Source: Sulfobacillus acidophilus DSM 10332
GTDB lineage: Bacteria; Bacillota; Sulfobacillia; Sulfobacillales; Sulfobacillaceae
NCBI GenBank assembly: GCA_000237975.1
Contig: CP003179.1
Coordinates: forward strand, 2,510,270-2,574,269
Reading direction: 5' to 3'
Length of the DNA: 64,000 bases
Shown: in pieces, positions 26,503 to 32,591 of the stretch
Position numbering within the stretch: the stretch's first letter is position 1
Layout: each line of letters starts with the position of its first letter
Translations under genes and position numbers: made by a program
Notes under the pieces: generated by a model
What the model was told of the DNA's origin: nothing
Databases searched by the model: none
Seen by the model: the letters and a program-made list of their open reading frames with translations, nothing else

Positions 26503-26531
26503 AAAAAAAGAGCCGGGGATTGTCCCCGGCT
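26503..26531 (-). terminator. Rho-independent terminator of the molybdenum hydroxylase operon
   Basis: On the minus strand AGCCGGGGA pairs with TCCCCGGCT around a 3-nt loop and is followed by CTTTTTTT, directly after the large-subunit stop codon. Confidence 0.93.
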
Positions 26532-28852
26532 TATGCCTTATCCCCGTGCACCCAGCTTAAAATGTCGCCGGGGGTTACCGGCAAGGTGTTGACCAGGACG
26601 CCAAACGGCGCCAACGCATCGGAAATGGCCCCGGCAATGGCCGCCGGCGAGGCAATCAGGCTGCCTTCCCCCATGCCTTTAATGCCCCCTTCCCCTTCCG
26701 ACGGGGTTTCAATATGTTGGATGGCCATGCGCGGCACATCCGGGGCTTCCGGCAACAAGTAATCCAACAGAGAGGTGGTGGTCAGCTGCCCATGCTCGTC
26801 ATAGCGCAAAACTTCCAACAAGGCGGACCCGACGCCTTGCGCCACCCCGCCGTGAATCTGCCCTTCGACAATGGTGGGATTGATTAACCGGCCACAGTCG
26901 TTGACCACCGCATACCGCGTAACCCGCACCAGACCGGTATGAATATCCACTTCGACTTCCGCAATGTGGGTACCGTTGGAAAAGCTCACCGGCCGCGGCG
27001 GCAGATAGCGGGCGGTAATCTCCAATCCAATCGGCAGCCCGGGCGGAATCTTCCGCACGTTCATATAGGCGGTTTCGGCGATTTCGCGAATGGTTACCGC
27101 CCGATCGGGCACACCGGCCACCCAGGCCTTCCCCTGGCCCAGTTCGATATCCTCTTCGGCGGCCTCTAAGAGTTGGGCGGCATAGGTTTTCAAACGTTCC
27201 CGCATTTGCCTTCCGGCCACTAATGCGGCACCGCCGCCGATAGGGCCGCTACGGCTGCCTCCGGTGCCGCCCCCCAAGGGCGCGCTATCGGTATCCCCGT
27301 GCAGTACCACGATGTCTTCCAGCGGGATCCCCAACTGATCGGCCAATATTTGGGCCATCGTCGTCTCATGTCCTTGCCCGGTCGGACCTAACCCGAGCGC
27401 GGCGGTTACCTTGCCCGAGGGCTCAATGCGCACGGTACACGATTCATAGCCGATCGATCCCGCTTCCGACGACGCCATCGCCGTCGGCTCCACAAACGCG
27501 GAAATCCCGATGCCGAGATAGCGCCCCGCTTGCCGAAGCTCGGCTTGTCGCGCGCGAAACCCGTCATAGTCAATCAACGAAAGCGCCGACTCCAACGACT
27601 GGCGGTACGAGCCCGCATCATAGATCATGCCGGCCGCGTTACGATAGGGAAATTGCTCGTCTCGAATCATGTTGCGACGCCGGACCTCGGCCGGATCGAG
27701 TCCCAAATGCCGGGCAACCCGATCGACAATCCCCTCTTGAATAAAGGAGGCAATCGGCCCCCAGACGCCTCGGTAGGCCCCCAAGGGCGTCTTGTTGGAA
27801 TAGGTGCAATCAATCGTCGTGGCCAGATGCGGGATGTCATACGGCCCCGTCAACACGCGAGATGCCAAACTCGTCTCGCCGACCGCTCCGGAATAGGGAT
27901 ACGGGGCAAATGCCCCGCCATCGGCCATTAAATGATCCCGCACGGCAATAATCCGGCCGTCGGCATCAAAGGCGACCTCGACATCGTGGATGTCGTCGCG
28001 GGCATGGACATCGCTCAGCAGCGACTCCACCCGGTCGGAAATCCATTTCACCGGACGGTTTAATAGCCGGGCGGCCTCCACCACCACAATGTCTTCCGGG
28101 TATGTGGTGGCTTTCATTCCAAATCCCCCGCCCACCTCGGGTACCACGATCCGGACCTGATGTTCGGGAATCCCCATAATCGTCGCGATGTCTTCCCGCA
28201 TCCGATGCGGCGATTGGGTCGACGCGTAAACGGTCAGCCGTCCCGACGCGGGATCCAACATCGCCAGGGTTCCCCGCGGCTCCAAAGTCACCGCGGTTTG
28301 CCGGTTGGTGCGAAACGTTTCCCGAAGATGATAGGGGGCGGCTTGAAACGCCTCCTCAAATCCCTGGGTTCGGTATTCTTTATGATAAAAGACGTTGTCG
28401 ACGCCCTCGTGAACGCTCCGCGGTTGCCCGGCGATGGCCTGCCGCATGTCCAACACCGGGGTTTTGGGGCGATAGCGCACCGTAATCAATTCGGCCGCGT
28501 CTTCGGCAATATACCGTGATTCCGCCACCACCGCCGCCACGGGTTGCCCGACGTAAAACACCGCACCTTGTGCCAGCGCCGGCTGACCCACTTTATAGGC
28601 CGACTTCTGCCACAAAAGGTAGGGACAATCGTCCGCCGTCAGTACCCGTACCACGCCAGGCACGGCCAGGGCACGACTGAAGTCAACCGACTCGATAGTC
28701 GCGGCCGCGTGCGGTGATCGCACGAACGCCACCTCTAACATCCCCGGCATTTGAATGTCGTCCATAAACCGGCTTCGTCCGGTCAACAACCGGGGGTCTT
28801 CGACGCGTGACACCCGGGCTCCCATCATTTGTGGCCGCATCGCCTGTTCCAT
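26531..28852 (-). CDS. Molybdenum hydroxylase large subunit (CoxL/XDH family)
   Basis: A 773-residue molybdopterin-cytosine-dinucleotide-type subunit. The N-terminal Ald_Xan_dh domain is RVEDPRLLTGRSRFMDDI...; the cofactor domain has EVGGGFGMK at 239-247, a QGHETTMAQ segment, and the C-terminal KGMGEGSLIASP with the family's catalytic Glu. The active-site loop reads GAYRGVWGP at 358-366: it is neither AYRCSFR of true CO dehydrogenase nor AYRGAGR of the form II group, so the substrate is unknown. ATG 28852 has gaggagg 9 bp upstream; the GTG at 28870 lies in that site. Last gene of the operon, with a strong terminator. Confidence 0.92.
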   Translation of the reverse strand: MEQAMRPQMMGARVSRVEDPRLLTGRSRFMDDIQMPGMLEVAFVRSPHAAATIESVDFSRALAVPGVVRVLTADDCPYLLWQKSAYKVGQPALAQGAVFYVGQPVAAVVAESRYIAEDAAELITVRYRPKTPVLDMRQAIAGQPRSVHEGVDNVFYHKEYRTQGFEEAFQAAPYHLRETFRTNRQTAVTLEPRGTLAMLDPASGRLTVYASTQSPHRMREDIATIMGIPEHQVRIVVPEVGGGFGMKATTYPEDIVVVEAARLLNRPVKWISDRVESLLSDVHARDDIHDVEVAFDADGRIIAVRDHLMADGGAFAPYPYSGAVGETSLASRVLTGPYDIPHLATTIDCTYSNKTPLGAYRGVWGPIASFIQEGIVDRVARHLGLDPAEVRRRNMIRDEQFPYRNAAGMIYDAGSYRQSLESALSLIDYDGFRARQAELRQAGRYLGIGISAFVEPTAMASSEAGSIGYESCTVRIEPSGKVTAALGLGPTGQGHETTMAQILADQLGIPLEDIVVLHGDTDSAPLGGGTGGSRSGPIGGGAALVAGRQMRERLKTYAAQLLEAAEEDIELGQGKAWVAGVPDRAVTIREIAETAYMNVRKIPPGLPIGLEITARYLPPRPVSFSNGTHIAEVEVDIHTGLVRVTRYAVVNDCGRLINPTIVEGQIHGGVAQGVGSALLEVLRYDEHGQLTTTSLLDYLLPEAPDVPRMAIQHIETPSEGEGGIKGMGEGSLIASPAAIAGAISDALAPFGVLVNTLPVTPGDILSWVHGDKA

Positions 28853-28870
28853 CGGTTTCGTCCTCCTCAC

Positions 28871-29350
28871 CTATTGGCCACTCGTGTCGGCGGCATCCAG
28901 TACCGCATCGACAATAAATTGATACCCGGTACATCGGCAGATGTTGCCCGAGAGTGCCTCCCGTACGCTGTCTTCCGTCAAGGGCTTTTGTTGTTGTAAT
29001 AAGGCGGTCGCCGTCACCACCATCCCCGGCGTGCAGAATCCGCATTGGAGGGCGTGATGTCGTTGAAACGCCATTTGTAGCGGCGATAGGCCGTCTTCCG
29101 GGGTGAGGCCTTCGATAGTGACCACATCATGGCCATCGGCTTGGATTGCAAAGGTCAAACAACTGCGCACCGGCTCGCCGTCCAACAACACGGTACAGGC
29201 ACCACAAGCGCCTTGCTCACATCCGACATGCGTCCCGGTCAATCCCAGCTGATGGCGTAACACGTCGGCCAGGGTCCAGCGCGGCTCGACGTCTACCGTA
29301 TGCTGCACACCATTGACGGTTAAACGAATCGATTCCCGTTGATTATTCAT
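28871..29350 (-). CDS. Molybdenum hydroxylase [2Fe-2S] subunit
   Basis: A 159-residue electron-transfer subunit. The N-terminal ferredoxin-like domain has GCEQGACGACTVLLDGEPVRSCL, and the C-terminal helical domain has CGFCTPGM and CRCTGYQ, so all eight cysteines for two [2Fe-2S] clusters are present. It passes electrons from the molybdenum site to the FAD subunit. Its start overlaps the stop of the FAD subunit gene (the A of ATG is shared at 29350), and the large subunit follows after 18 bp, which shows translational coupling. Confidence 0.95.
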   Translation of the reverse strand: MNNQRESIRLTVNGVQHTVDVEPRWTLADVLRHQLGLTGTHVGCEQGACGACTVLLDGEPVRSCLTFAIQADGHDVVTIEGLTPEDGLSPLQMAFQRHHALQCGFCTPGMVVTATALLQQQKPLTEDSVREALSGNICRCTGYQFIVDAVLDAADTSGQ

Positions 29351-30174
29351 CAGCCCATCTCCCTTCGTCCTGTCGCCTGTAGATACGCCCGATGGGCAAC
29401 CGCTTCCGCTTCATGCCATTTGACGGGATCGGGGGTCATATCGCTGACCGCTTCCGCCAAAATGGCCCGCCAGACCGCGGAATCGGGTCCGATGCGGTCC
29501 CGCGCAATCCGGTCAACCCGCACGGGGGTATCCGCTATTCCGAACCAGGTCACCTCCACCGTCTTCGGGTGTACGGTGACATATGCCCCGGCCAGCGCAA
29601 AATCTCCGACCCGGCGAGCGACTTCGGAAAATCCCTGGTGACCGACCGCAAAGGGTACCCACACCGATTGAATCACTTCGTCAGGAGCCAGCGCCGTCAT
29701 ATAAAGACCCAAGAAAAACTCTCGGGCGGAAATCTCCCGTATCCCGGCCGGCCCCCGCACCACCAACCGCGCATCCAACGCCACCATCGCCGCCGGTAAT
29801 TCGGACGCCGGATCGGCATGAGCCAGACTACCGCCGAGCGTCCCCCGATTACGGATAGCCCAATGGCCGATATGGCTTGCCGCCTCCGCCAGAGTCGGCA
29901 GGTGAGTCAACACCAAGGGGTGCGTCGCCAATTGCTGATGGCGGACCAACGCCCCAATCTCTAACCCCTGATCGCGTAGGGCAATACGGCCCCATTCGTC
30001 CGCCAAGCCGTTGATATCGACCAACACCGAAGGCCGGCTGAGGCGAAAGTTCATGAGCGGAATTAAACTTTGGCCGCCCGCCAGCACTTTCGCGTCAGGG
30101 TGACGCTGTAAAACCTGAATCGCCTCGTCCATCGACGAGACCCGCACATAACGAAACGGTGCCGGCTTCATCAT
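29350..30174 (-). CDS. Molybdenum hydroxylase FAD subunit (CoxM-like)
   Basis: A 274-residue FAD-binding subunit. The opening APFRYVRVSSMDEAIQVLQRHPDAKVLAGGQSLIPLMNFRLSRPSVLVDI carries the AGGQSL FAD motif, and HIGHWAIRNRGTLGGSLAHADPASELPAA carries the second, TxGGxxxxxDPAxE(L/x). The C-terminal CO_deh_flav_C domain follows with EVARRVGDFALAGAYVTV. It takes electrons from the iron-sulfur subunit. It starts 21 bp after the VWA gene, with aaggaggc upstream. Confidence 0.95.
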   Translation of the reverse strand: MMKPAPFRYVRVSSMDEAIQVLQRHPDAKVLAGGQSLIPLMNFRLSRPSVLVDINGLADEWGRIALRDQGLEIGALVRHQQLATHPLVLTHLPTLAEAASHIGHWAIRNRGTLGGSLAHADPASELPAAMVALDARLVVRGPAGIREISAREFFLGLYMTALAPDEVIQSVWVPFAVGHQGFSEVARRVGDFALAGAYVTVHPKTVEVTWFGIADTPVRVDRIARDRIGPDSAVWRAILAEAVSDMTPDPVKWHEAEAVAHRAYLQATGRREMG

Positions 30175-30195
30175 CTGCCTCCTTGTTCCTGTCTC

Positions 30196-30942
30196 TTAAT
30201 GAAACCCCAACTCGCGACTAATCGCGATTAACTGGCTCGGACGCACGCCGGCGGTCAACCGACTCCAGTAATGTTTCGCCACTTTGAGGGCCCGGGTTTT
30301 GGGCTCAAAACCGGGAGTGGCCTTTAACGGATTAATCCAAATAATCCGCGCCACTTGGGCCCTTAACGTCCGTAGCGCCCCCTCCAACCGTTCGGGAGAC
30401 CCGGTATCCCAGCCGTCGGAGATAATGACCACGGTGGTTCGCGGTCGTATCCAGTCGCCGCCATATTGTTGAATCCACAGGGCCAACGAATCGCCGATGG
30501 CCGTCCCGCTACCATACGTTGTCATTTGGGCCTCTAAAGCCCTTTGCGCCAAGTAGGGGGGTAATTCAAATGCCGGAGTGACGTCGTCGAGGCCTGTCCC
30601 GAACATAAACACCCCGATGCGCCCCGCACCCGTCTGCACCAACCGATAGACCCATGGCCAATAATGCGGGACATAGGTGGCCATGGAGCCCGAAACGTCC
30701 CACAACATCACCACCGGGGCTAAACGACGCGGACTCCGCATACGCCGAAAGCGAGGATCGGCCGCCTCGGTGCGCGCCCAACGGGTGACGGTCCGCCGCC
30801 AATCGGGATCGGCCAAGGCACCCAAGCGCCTCCCGTGACGACTGGGAACGGTGACTTGCACCGCCTGCATCGGTCGTAAACGCCGAGTCCAGTGCCCCTT
30901 GTCTGCAAGCCAGGTAATCGAATCGCCGTGAGCCGGCGACAA
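30196..30942 (-). CDS. CoxE-like VWA-domain protein, short N-terminus
   Basis: A 248-residue protein when read from TTG 30942. Its VWA domain has a MIDAS motif DVSGSM in VVMLWDVSGSMATYV, a TxxG-type YGSGTAIGDSLALW and ISDGWDTGSPE. CoxE and the AAA ATPase CoxD work together in inserting the sulfurated molybdenum site in CO dehydrogenase. No ATG or GTG exists upstream in this frame; it stays open for 37 codons to the TGA that ends the coxD-like gene, and that TGA is in the same frame. Thus the true start may be TTG, or the two genes may be a split or read-through fusion. The N-terminal region usual in CoxE seems missing. Confidence 0.75.
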   Translation of the reverse strand: MSPAHGDSITWLADKGHWTRRLRPMQAVQVTVPSRHGRRLGALADPDWRRTVTRWARTEAADPRFRRMRSPRRLAPVVMLWDVSGSMATYVPHYWPWVYRLVQTGAGRIGVFMFGTGLDDVTPAFELPPYLAQRALEAQMTTYGSGTAIGDSLALWIQQYGGDWIRPRTTVVIISDGWDTGSPERLEGALRTLRAQVARIIWINPLKATPGFEPKTRALKVAKHYWSRLTAGVRPSQLIAISRELGFH

Positions 30943-31053
30943 ACTGGCACCCGCCGTGCCTACGGATTCCGGTGAACCCGGCGGGGCGTCGGGCCGGTCG
31001 CCCTGAGGAGATACGCGAGCCTGCGGGGGAGACTCCTCCGCCGACCGGGCATT

Positions 31054-31902
31054 TCACGTCGGGTCGGCATCCACCAGGTCGTCGATCCGCCCGCTGACCG
31101 TTTCCAGGTCCCAGGCGTCCTTAATCACCAGCCCTAGCGTGTTTTGAATCCACGCCCGGTCCCATTGCCCCGGATGCATGATGGTCCAAGCGCGAGCCCA
31201 ATCCAACGTCTCCGCCAGACCGGGCGGTTTGACCAAATCCCATTGACGAAGACACCGCACCGCATTCACCAGCCGCTCTAAAATTCCCCGGTCCAATGAA
31301 GGCAGCGCCGTTTCCACGATGGCGATTTCCCGCTCTCGTTCCGGCCAATCCACATAAAGATAAAGGCACCGCCGACGAAGGGCGTCCGACAACGGCCGCT
31401 GCCGGTTGGAGGTCAAAATCGTTAGCGGTGACGCCGCCGCTTTAATGGTTCCCAGCTCAGGAATAGAAATTTGAAATTCACTCAGATATTCCAGCAAGAG
31501 GGCCTCAAATGCTTCATCGGCCCGGTCGACCTCGTCGATGAGCAACACCGTTTCGGGTGTCTCTACGGCCTTCAATAAGGGGCGGGCCAAGAGAAAGCGC
31601 CGCGAAAAAGGATCGGTCGCCTGGCCTTGCTGCAAGGCCACCCATTGTTGATGGTAGTTCCAATCATACAACGCTTCATCCGCCGTCAATCCCTCATAAC
31701 AGCTGAGTCGCACCAAAGGGCGCTTTAGCGCCGCCGCCAGCGCTTCGGCCAACGCGGTTTTTCCGCTCCCGGCGGGCCCCTCCAAGAGCAACGGTCGCCC
31801 CATCTCCATCGCTAGACCCGCCATCAGGGCAATTTGATCGTTGGCCACATATCCCCCCTGGCGCAATAATCTCTGGAAGCGATCGCTAAGCCGGTTGGTC
31901 AT
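31054..31902 (-). CDS. MoxR-type AAA ATPase (CoxD-like)
   Basis: A 282-residue AAA+ protein. Walker A is LLLEGPAGSGKTALAEALA, Walker B VLLIDEVDRADEAFEALLLEYLSE, sensor 1 ILTSNRQRPLSDALRRRCLYLYVDWP with the arginine finger, matching MoxR/CoxD proteins. CoxD is required for assembling the catalytic metal site of CO dehydrogenase; here the target is presumably the hydroxylase encoded downstream. ATG 31902 was chosen, with aggaggcg about 12 bp upstream; a longer frame to 31983 runs into the leader region. The TGA stop is immediately followed, in the same frame, by the VWA-protein coding sequence. Confidence 0.88.
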   Translation of the reverse strand: MTNRLSDRFQRLLRQGGYVANDQIALMAGLAMEMGRPLLLEGPAGSGKTALAEALAAALKRPLVRLSCYEGLTADEALYDWNYHQQWVALQQGQATDPFSRRFLLARPLLKAVETPETVLLIDEVDRADEAFEALLLEYLSEFQISIPELGTIKAAASPLTILTSNRQRPLSDALRRRCLYLYVDWPEREREIAIVETALPSLDRGILERLVNAVRCLRQWDLVKPPGLAETLDWARAWTIMHPGQWDRAWIQNTLGLVIKDAWDLETVSGRIDDLVDADPT

Positions 31903-31992
31903 GTAATGGTTTTTACGCCTCCTGATCCCCCGATGTCGCCACATCGGTTGTCGCTTGGGGAAAAATTCGGGCCAGATGGCCACGCCGCCGAA

Positions 31993-32125: not shown

Positions 32126-32374
32126 CTACGGAAAAACCCGCCCTCGACGTTGGCGCCGATGCTGTAGCCGGGTACGACGCGCTTCGGTGAGGTAACGGAG
32201 ACCGGGGGGATACATTTTGACCAGCGTGGCTTGGGGAATCATGACCTGCAAGTTGCCGCACAAGGTACACTGCTTGCCACGGACGATAACGACCGAAAAA
32301 GGACCGCTTTCTACCGTTAAAGGACCCGTCAACACCACATCCTCAGATCCACAGGTGGGGCAGCGTTCATCCAT
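32126..32374 (-). CDS. YgiT-type zinc finger protein
   Basis: An 82-residue protein with two CxxC pairs, CPTCGSEDV at the N-terminus and CTLCGNLQV in the middle, as in YgiT/MqsA-like zinc ribbons. The C-terminal third is basic (RRTRLQHRRQRRGR). No toxin partner gene lies next to it, so it is not an obvious antitoxin. Start ATG 32374 has gaggagga upstream. Its promoter region holds the DnaA-box array (32440-32493). It may be transcribed with the coxD genes, 223 bp downstream. Confidence 0.75.
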   Translation of the reverse strand: MDERCPTCGSEDVVLTGPLTVESGPFSVVIVRGKQCTLCGNLQVMIPQATLVKMYPPGLRYLTEARRTRLQHRRQRRGRVFP

Positions 32375-32439
32375 GGAAAATCCTCCTCACGTTTGCGATT
32401 ACCAGATCCTTTCTCTTCCCGGATCGAATTTCCTTCCGG

Positions 32440-32493
32440 TTATGCACACCTCGTCCACAGTTTTTTCACACGGTTATCCCCAATATATCCACA
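32440..32493 (+). promoter_or_regulatory. Array of five helically phased DnaA-box-like 9-mers
   Basis: Five boxes in one orientation start at 32440 (TTATGCACA), 32451 (TCGTCCACA), 32462 (TTTTTCACA), 32474 (TTATCCCCA) and 32485 (ATATCCACA). Starts are 11, 11, 12 and 11 bp apart, so all face one side of the helix. Relative to TTATCCACA they have 1, 2, 2, 1 and 1 mismatches. The spacing of 2-3 bp between boxes is that used for DnaA oligomers in replication origins. The region lies between an SDR gene and a zinc-ribbon gene, 66-119 bp upstream of the latter's start. Confidence 0.65.
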
Positions 32494-32582
32494 ATTTCCG
32501 ACAACCCCGTCGAAACGCGCTAGCACGTGAAATCGCTTCAAATCGGGCGATAAATCATCTATCGGCCGGAGCCTCGCCCAAG

Positions 32583-32591
32583 TTATCCACA
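32583..32591 (+). promoter_or_regulatory. Perfect DnaA box
   Basis: TTATCCACA, an exact consensus DnaA box in the same orientation as the array, 90 bp beyond its last member and 5 bp from the end of the SDR gene. Confidence 0.65.

Follow-up and report, generated by a model that had tools for sequence, protein, structure and literature searches.

A phased DnaA-box array conserved at the zinc-ribbon gene ZnR of Sulfobacillaceae: a candidate DnaA- and Spo0A-responsive sigma-H promoter

The locus

The window analysed here is a 64,000-nucleotide stretch of Sulfobacillus acidophilus DSM 10332, positions 2,510,270 to 2,574,269 of a 3,472,898-bp chromosome (genome, 3,557,831 bp). Besides the chromosome, the strain carries a single plasmid of 84,933 bp (PMC3558970). 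The window contains the gene of a small zinc-ribbon-like protein, here ZnR, preceded by an array of DnaA boxes and by predicted promoter elements. The features are as follows.

32126..32374, minus strand: ZnR, 82 aa; two CxxC knuckles, basic C-terminal helix; target gene of the predicted promoter
32410..32416, minus strand: predicted -10 of the sigma-H-type ZnR promoter, AGAGAAA (consensus RNNGAAT)
32428..32436, minus strand: predicted -35 of the sigma-H-type ZnR promoter, GAAGGAAAT (consensus RNAGGAWWW)
32440..32448, plus strand: DnaA box 1, TTATGCACA; nearest the promoter and least conserved, 0.67 bits/position
32451..32459, plus strand: DnaA box 2, TCGTCCACA; 1.40 bits/position, family consensus near TYATCCACA
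32462..32470, plus strand: DnaA box 3, TTTTTCACA; 1.78 bits/position
32474..32482, plus strand: DnaA box 4, TTATCCCCA; 1.96 bits/position
32485..32493, plus strand: DnaA box 5, ATATCCACA; 1.78 bits/position
32497..32503, minus strand: Spo0A-box-like site (0A box), TGTCGGA; TGTCRAA in the family
32508..32514, plus strand: oppositely oriented second Spo0A-box-like site, CGTCGAA; in 13 of 29 genomes
32583..32591, plus strand: perfect TTATCCACA, adjoining the end of an SDR gene

The five boxes of the array, all on the plus strand, start 11, 11, 12, and 11 bp apart. An earlier note, made from the DNA letters, had reported these five 9-mers, their spacing, and the perfect TTATCCACA, all of which we found at the same positions. 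It had also counted the box at 32583 with the array; this position is not kept in relatives, and the box probably lies outside the element.

Arrays were scored with a consensus-based DnaA matrix as chains of five boxes with steps of 10 to 13 bp, and a 400-kb sample of S. acidophilus genome stretches served as the genome comparison. At 60.7 bits, the five-box chain is the top of the 64-kb window; the best chain in the 400-kb sample reached 33.6 bits, and that at oriC reached 35.3 bits. When the same intergenic region was shuffled 5,000 times with a first-order Markov model, no shuffle attained 60.7 bits (maximum, 21.7 bits), so the array scores far better than shuffled intergenic DNA and the boxes cluster outside oriC beyond chance. 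Because the chain score lies far above the shuffles, the 400-kb sample, and oriC, the arrangement is not due to chance. Single boxes of the form TTWTNCACA are unremarkable (8 in the window versus 2.9 expected); the exceptional feature is the phased arrangement, not the single boxes.

ZnR family members (80 to 89 aa) contain two CxxC knuckles, short beta strands, and a C-terminal helix that is strongly basic. For ZnR, neither Pfam nor NCBIfam gave a family above its cut-off, and a comparison of the ZnR profile with the MqsA/YgiT zinc ribbon gave an E value of only 0.1. The AlphaFold model is of moderate quality (pLDDT, 75; pTM, 0.48) and had no significant structural match in the PDB. It is a reasonable guess that ZnR is a nucleic-acid- or RNA polymerase-binding zinc-ribbon protein. 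Downstream of ZnR, positions 26531-31983 of the window encode molybdenum-hydroxylase-like large, small, and medium subunits, a VWA protein, and a MoxR ATPase; this region adjoins ZnR in many but not all relatives.

Conservation of the array and its linkage to ZnR

The relatives compared were 34 genomes of the Sulfobacillaceae, a family of spore-forming acidophiles, many of these genomes being draft or metagenome assemblies, whose sequences are related, so that the counts are not independent. A nucleotide search restricted to the intergenic region found matches in 26 of the 34 genomes, while a protein search with ZnR found matches in 32. When the upstream regions were read, the array was present upstream of ZnR in all 32 ZnR-carrying genomes, including those that the DNA search had missed; the two genomes with no ZnR match are 59% and 86% complete assemblies. 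Among 398 genomes of the phylum, no ZnR relatives were found outside the family, and a search with the full element gave strong matches (E ~1e-18) in family members only. Weaker matches, from E 9e-7 onward, were to other DnaA-box clusters, of which some lie beside dnaA.

From box 2 through the 0A box, the element aligns with zero indels in 29 distinct sequences. In the same 29 sequences, information content is 1.4 to 1.96 bits/position in boxes 2 to 5, 0.67 in box 1, which is missing in several genomes, and 0.16 in the flanks. Box 4 is identical in 27 of the 29 genomes and reads TTATCCTCA in the other two; the non-consensus base itself is retained. Across these genomes, the identity of ZnR to the window copy is only 50 to 78%, and the neighbors beyond ZnR and the array differ (an SDR gene, a gene for a protein of ~500 aa, and others). 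As judged from these sequence comparisons, the array and ZnR are one unit, because they stay together while the other neighbors change.

Some genomes without box 1 (L067, L069, and L072 of genus g9) have an extra DnaA-box-like 9-mer near the ZnR -10 or start. Other causes of conservation were considered and rejected: no reading frame is open across the element in all genomes (best, 23/29), the element has no Rfam match that would indicate a known RNA, and no match to a plasmid record points to a plasmid origin or iterons.

A sigma-H-type promoter and a Spo0A-box-like site

The sigma-H consensus consists of RNAGGAWWW and RNNGAATWW (PMC8510167). In the window genome, the predicted ZnR promoter reads GAAGGAAAT-N11-AGAGAAA, with a spacer of 11 nt, which is 12 nt in most relatives. 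A relaxed form of the sigma-H pattern (RNAGGAWWW, 11 to 12 nt, and RNNGAAT), namely, RNAGG(A)-N11/12-NNNGAA, is found on the ZnR side in 27 of 29 genomes and is degenerate in the other two (L066 and L084); it occurs anywhere in 4.4% of shuffled 60-mers. The -10 at ZnR is mostly GAAA, not GAAT. In 26 genomes the promoter begins at one and the same distance from box 4, and it lies 1 nt further away in the window genome, whereas the distance to the ATG varies from 95 to 135. The array thus occupies a conserved position relative to the promoter and the gene. No sigma-70-type promoter or terminator was found at the locus.

The Spo0A box has the core TGTCGAA with contacts at G2, C4, and G5 (PMC3485338), to which the predicted site beside box 5 conforms. 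G2 and C4 are kept in 29 of 29 genomes, and G5 is kept in 25, with A in the remaining 4; the window genome has one mismatch (TGTCGGA), and in some genomes the site is reduced to TGTCR. A sixth DnaA box is an unlikely reading of the site, since the C position of the DnaA box is G in 29/29 genomes. Compensation of a degenerate first 0A box by a perfect second one was also considered (0/12 versus 13/17; Fisher P = 6e-5) and rejected, as the test by genus was not significant (P = 0.19). The left edge of oriC (C1:7-25) repeats the layout of the array end (32485-32503), with a DnaA box, a few bases, and CCGACA, and a Spo0A site is possible there.

Genes for both SigH and Spo0A are present. As an independent control, we used the regions upstream of spoVG, a classic sigma-H gene, from 30 family genomes (L142-L171). 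Almost throughout the family, the spoVG promoter is AAAAATTTCGACAATTGARAGGAATT-N12-GCGAAT or near it, and a Spo0A box followed directly by the sigma-H promoter is nearly invariant 5' of the gene. The spoVG module, TTTCGACAA plus RNAGGA..-N12-GCGAAT, has the same two motifs as ZnR without the DnaA boxes: at ZnR, the 0A box lies ~60 bp upstream of the -35 with the five DnaA boxes between them, whereas at spoVG it nearly abuts the -35. A sigma-H-type promoter is also present in the gap upstream of spo0A. Thus, these motifs belong to the family and not to Bacillus alone.

Position of the array in the chromosome

Phased DnaA arrays are typical of oriC, and the earlier note had considered an origin that had gone unrecognized. 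It had rightly stated that neither dnaA, dnaN, nor another oriC gene lies near the array. The sole full-length dnaA gene starts at base 241, preceded by DnaA boxes at 7-15 and 187-195 (oriC, C1:1-241), and the array is 0.93 Mb (930 kb) away. In two relatives with both on one contig, the distances between the array and dnaA are 647 and 824 kb; in the three genomes, 18 to 27% of the chromosome separates the two. GC skew stays positive over the first ~1.6 Mb and is negative later, flipping near 0 and ~1.73 Mb only, and it does not change at the array (~2.54 Mb). Given the single complete dnaA gene with its own boxes, the steady skew, and the distance kept in three genomes, a second replication origin at the array is highly improbable and was rejected.

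Other DnaA-box groups were seen in the chromosome. The second-best phased array of the sample (33.6 bits; C1:30347-30404; L095, L116:10340-10400) lies between two convergent genes ~30 kb from oriC and is more suitable than the array at 32440 as a candidate titration site. A cluster at C1:210470-210514 (L096) immediately precedes a small HTH gene, with a yabQ-like gene on one side and a divIC-like gene on the other; the same layout occurs in a distant member of the phylum (L105), and this appears to be another DnaA-linked locus, conserved more widely. At C1:94659-94686 (L086), an inverted pair of perfect DnaA boxes, with 10 bp between them, adjoins a gene end. Two perfect TTATCCACA sites with starts 12 bp apart (C1:1108424-1108444; L087:1125-1145) lie within the start of an open reading frame, the neighbors of which look like mobile-element genes.

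Proposed function of the array and alternative explanations

We consider it probable that the array forms the upstream regulatory part of the ZnR promoter and that this is a DnaA- and Spo0A-responsive sigma-H promoter. Toward ZnR, the order is one or two 0A boxes, five DnaA boxes on one helical face, the sigma-H-type -35 and -10, a leader of 30 to 70 nt, and ZnR. DnaA would assemble cooperatively on the phased, mostly sub-consensus boxes, most likely as ATP-DnaA, because phased weak boxes need cooperation. The filament would contact or exclude sigma-H RNA polymerase, probably activating transcription, while Spo0A~P would bind the outer box and modulate the same promoter, so that ZnR output would depend on the replication state and on commitment to sporulate. 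A DnaA-controlled ZnR promoter was among the suggestions of the earlier note, and it gains from the array-gene linkage in every ZnR genome and from the sigma-H-type promoter at a fixed distance; neither this promoter nor the 0A box appeared in that note.

The sign of the effect is less certain. We lean modestly toward activation, because the conserved boxes sit upstream of the -35, which is the usual location for an activator, and box 1, the nearest to the -35, is the least conserved. If the filament instead blocked sigma-H polymerase, ZnR would be switched on once DnaA leaves, for example, at sporulation. DnaA is known to repress several B. subtilis promoters (PMC4447404), and the extra box near the -10 or start in some g9 genomes would suit such a role, but the placement of the conserved boxes makes repression of ZnR the more doubtful option.

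The earlier note had also thought of a site like datA or DARS, which the evidence does not require. As a locus for titration, inactivation, or reactivation of DnaA (datA/DARS- or gcp/ydiF-like), with ZnR as a passenger, the array would have its strength in its favor, being the strongest phased array examined and exceeding oriC, as well as its mid-arm position in the three genomes. However, its distance to a conserved promoter is exact, and it is never found apart from ZnR; titration needs neither. A transcriptional role is preferred over pure titration because the array-promoter distance is fixed while the promoter-ATG distance is variable; titration as the primary function is thus unlikely, although it may be a side effect of the array. 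It is less likely still that the 9-mers serve a protein other than DnaA that recognizes TTATCCACA-like repeats. Such a protein, in place of DnaA or beside it, would fit the fact that non-consensus letters in boxes 3 (TTTTT) and 4 (C) are conserved exactly, but each box is a recognizable variant of TTATCCACA, the motif that DnaA is known to read, and the steps of 11 to 12 bp are DnaA-like.

Relation to known systems

In B. subtilis, the sda gene is activated by DnaA, and its product Sda restrains the phosphorylation of Spo0A during replication (PMC5295017, PMC4447404); at the sda region, ATP-DnaA binds far better than ADP-DnaA at low concentration (PMC4447404). The ZnR locus resembles the sda promoter in having a DnaA-box cluster outside oriC that precedes the gene of a very small protein and makes DnaA a candidate activator linking replication to Spo0A (PMC4447404, PMC5295017, PMC8203912). 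It differs in encoding a zinc-ribbon protein instead of Sda, in its sigma-H-type promoter and Spo0A box, and in the single orientation and 11- to 12-bp steps of its boxes. The B. subtilis clusters at ywlC, ywcI/vpr, yydA, gcp/ydiF, and trmE likewise have several intergenic DnaA boxes far from oriC (PMC4447404), but they accompany different genes, whereas the gene at the ZnR array is specific to the family. Spo0A boxes overlap DnaA boxes at the B. subtilis oriC (PMC5295017), and DnaA and predicted Spo0A sites likewise lie side by side at ZnR; the former sites block initiation, whereas the latter sit at a promoter. The datA and DARS loci of E. coli are also DnaA-box arrays away from oriC, in contrast to which the ZnR array is built into a promoter.

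SirA is a small protein, a Spo0A-controlled inhibitor of DnaA acting on replication at sporulation (PMC5295017), and ZnR resembles it as a small protein with candidate Spo0A-dependent expression. Sda (PF08970) was found in 0 of 34 family genomes, with a positive control in B. subtilis. Because the family is without Sda, ZnR may be a checkpoint protein of the Sda/SirA kind; we suggest, tentatively, that in Sulfobacillaceae it takes the place of Sda/SirA, as a small zinc-ribbon protein related to neither, which would be expressed from a promoter responding jointly to DnaA, Spo0A, and sigma-H and would couple replication to sporulation entry. In the literature searched, no publication treats DnaA-regulated genes in Sulfobacillus.

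The locus, one family-specific gene that matches no curated family and one element of 100 bp, would illustrate, in compact natural form, how DnaA acts as an upstream transcription factor under strict helical geometry. The link between replication and sporulation is poorly known outside Bacillus, and Sda is absent here; a DnaA array, a predicted Spo0A box, and a sigma-H-type core locked together across the family offer a concrete candidate for this link.
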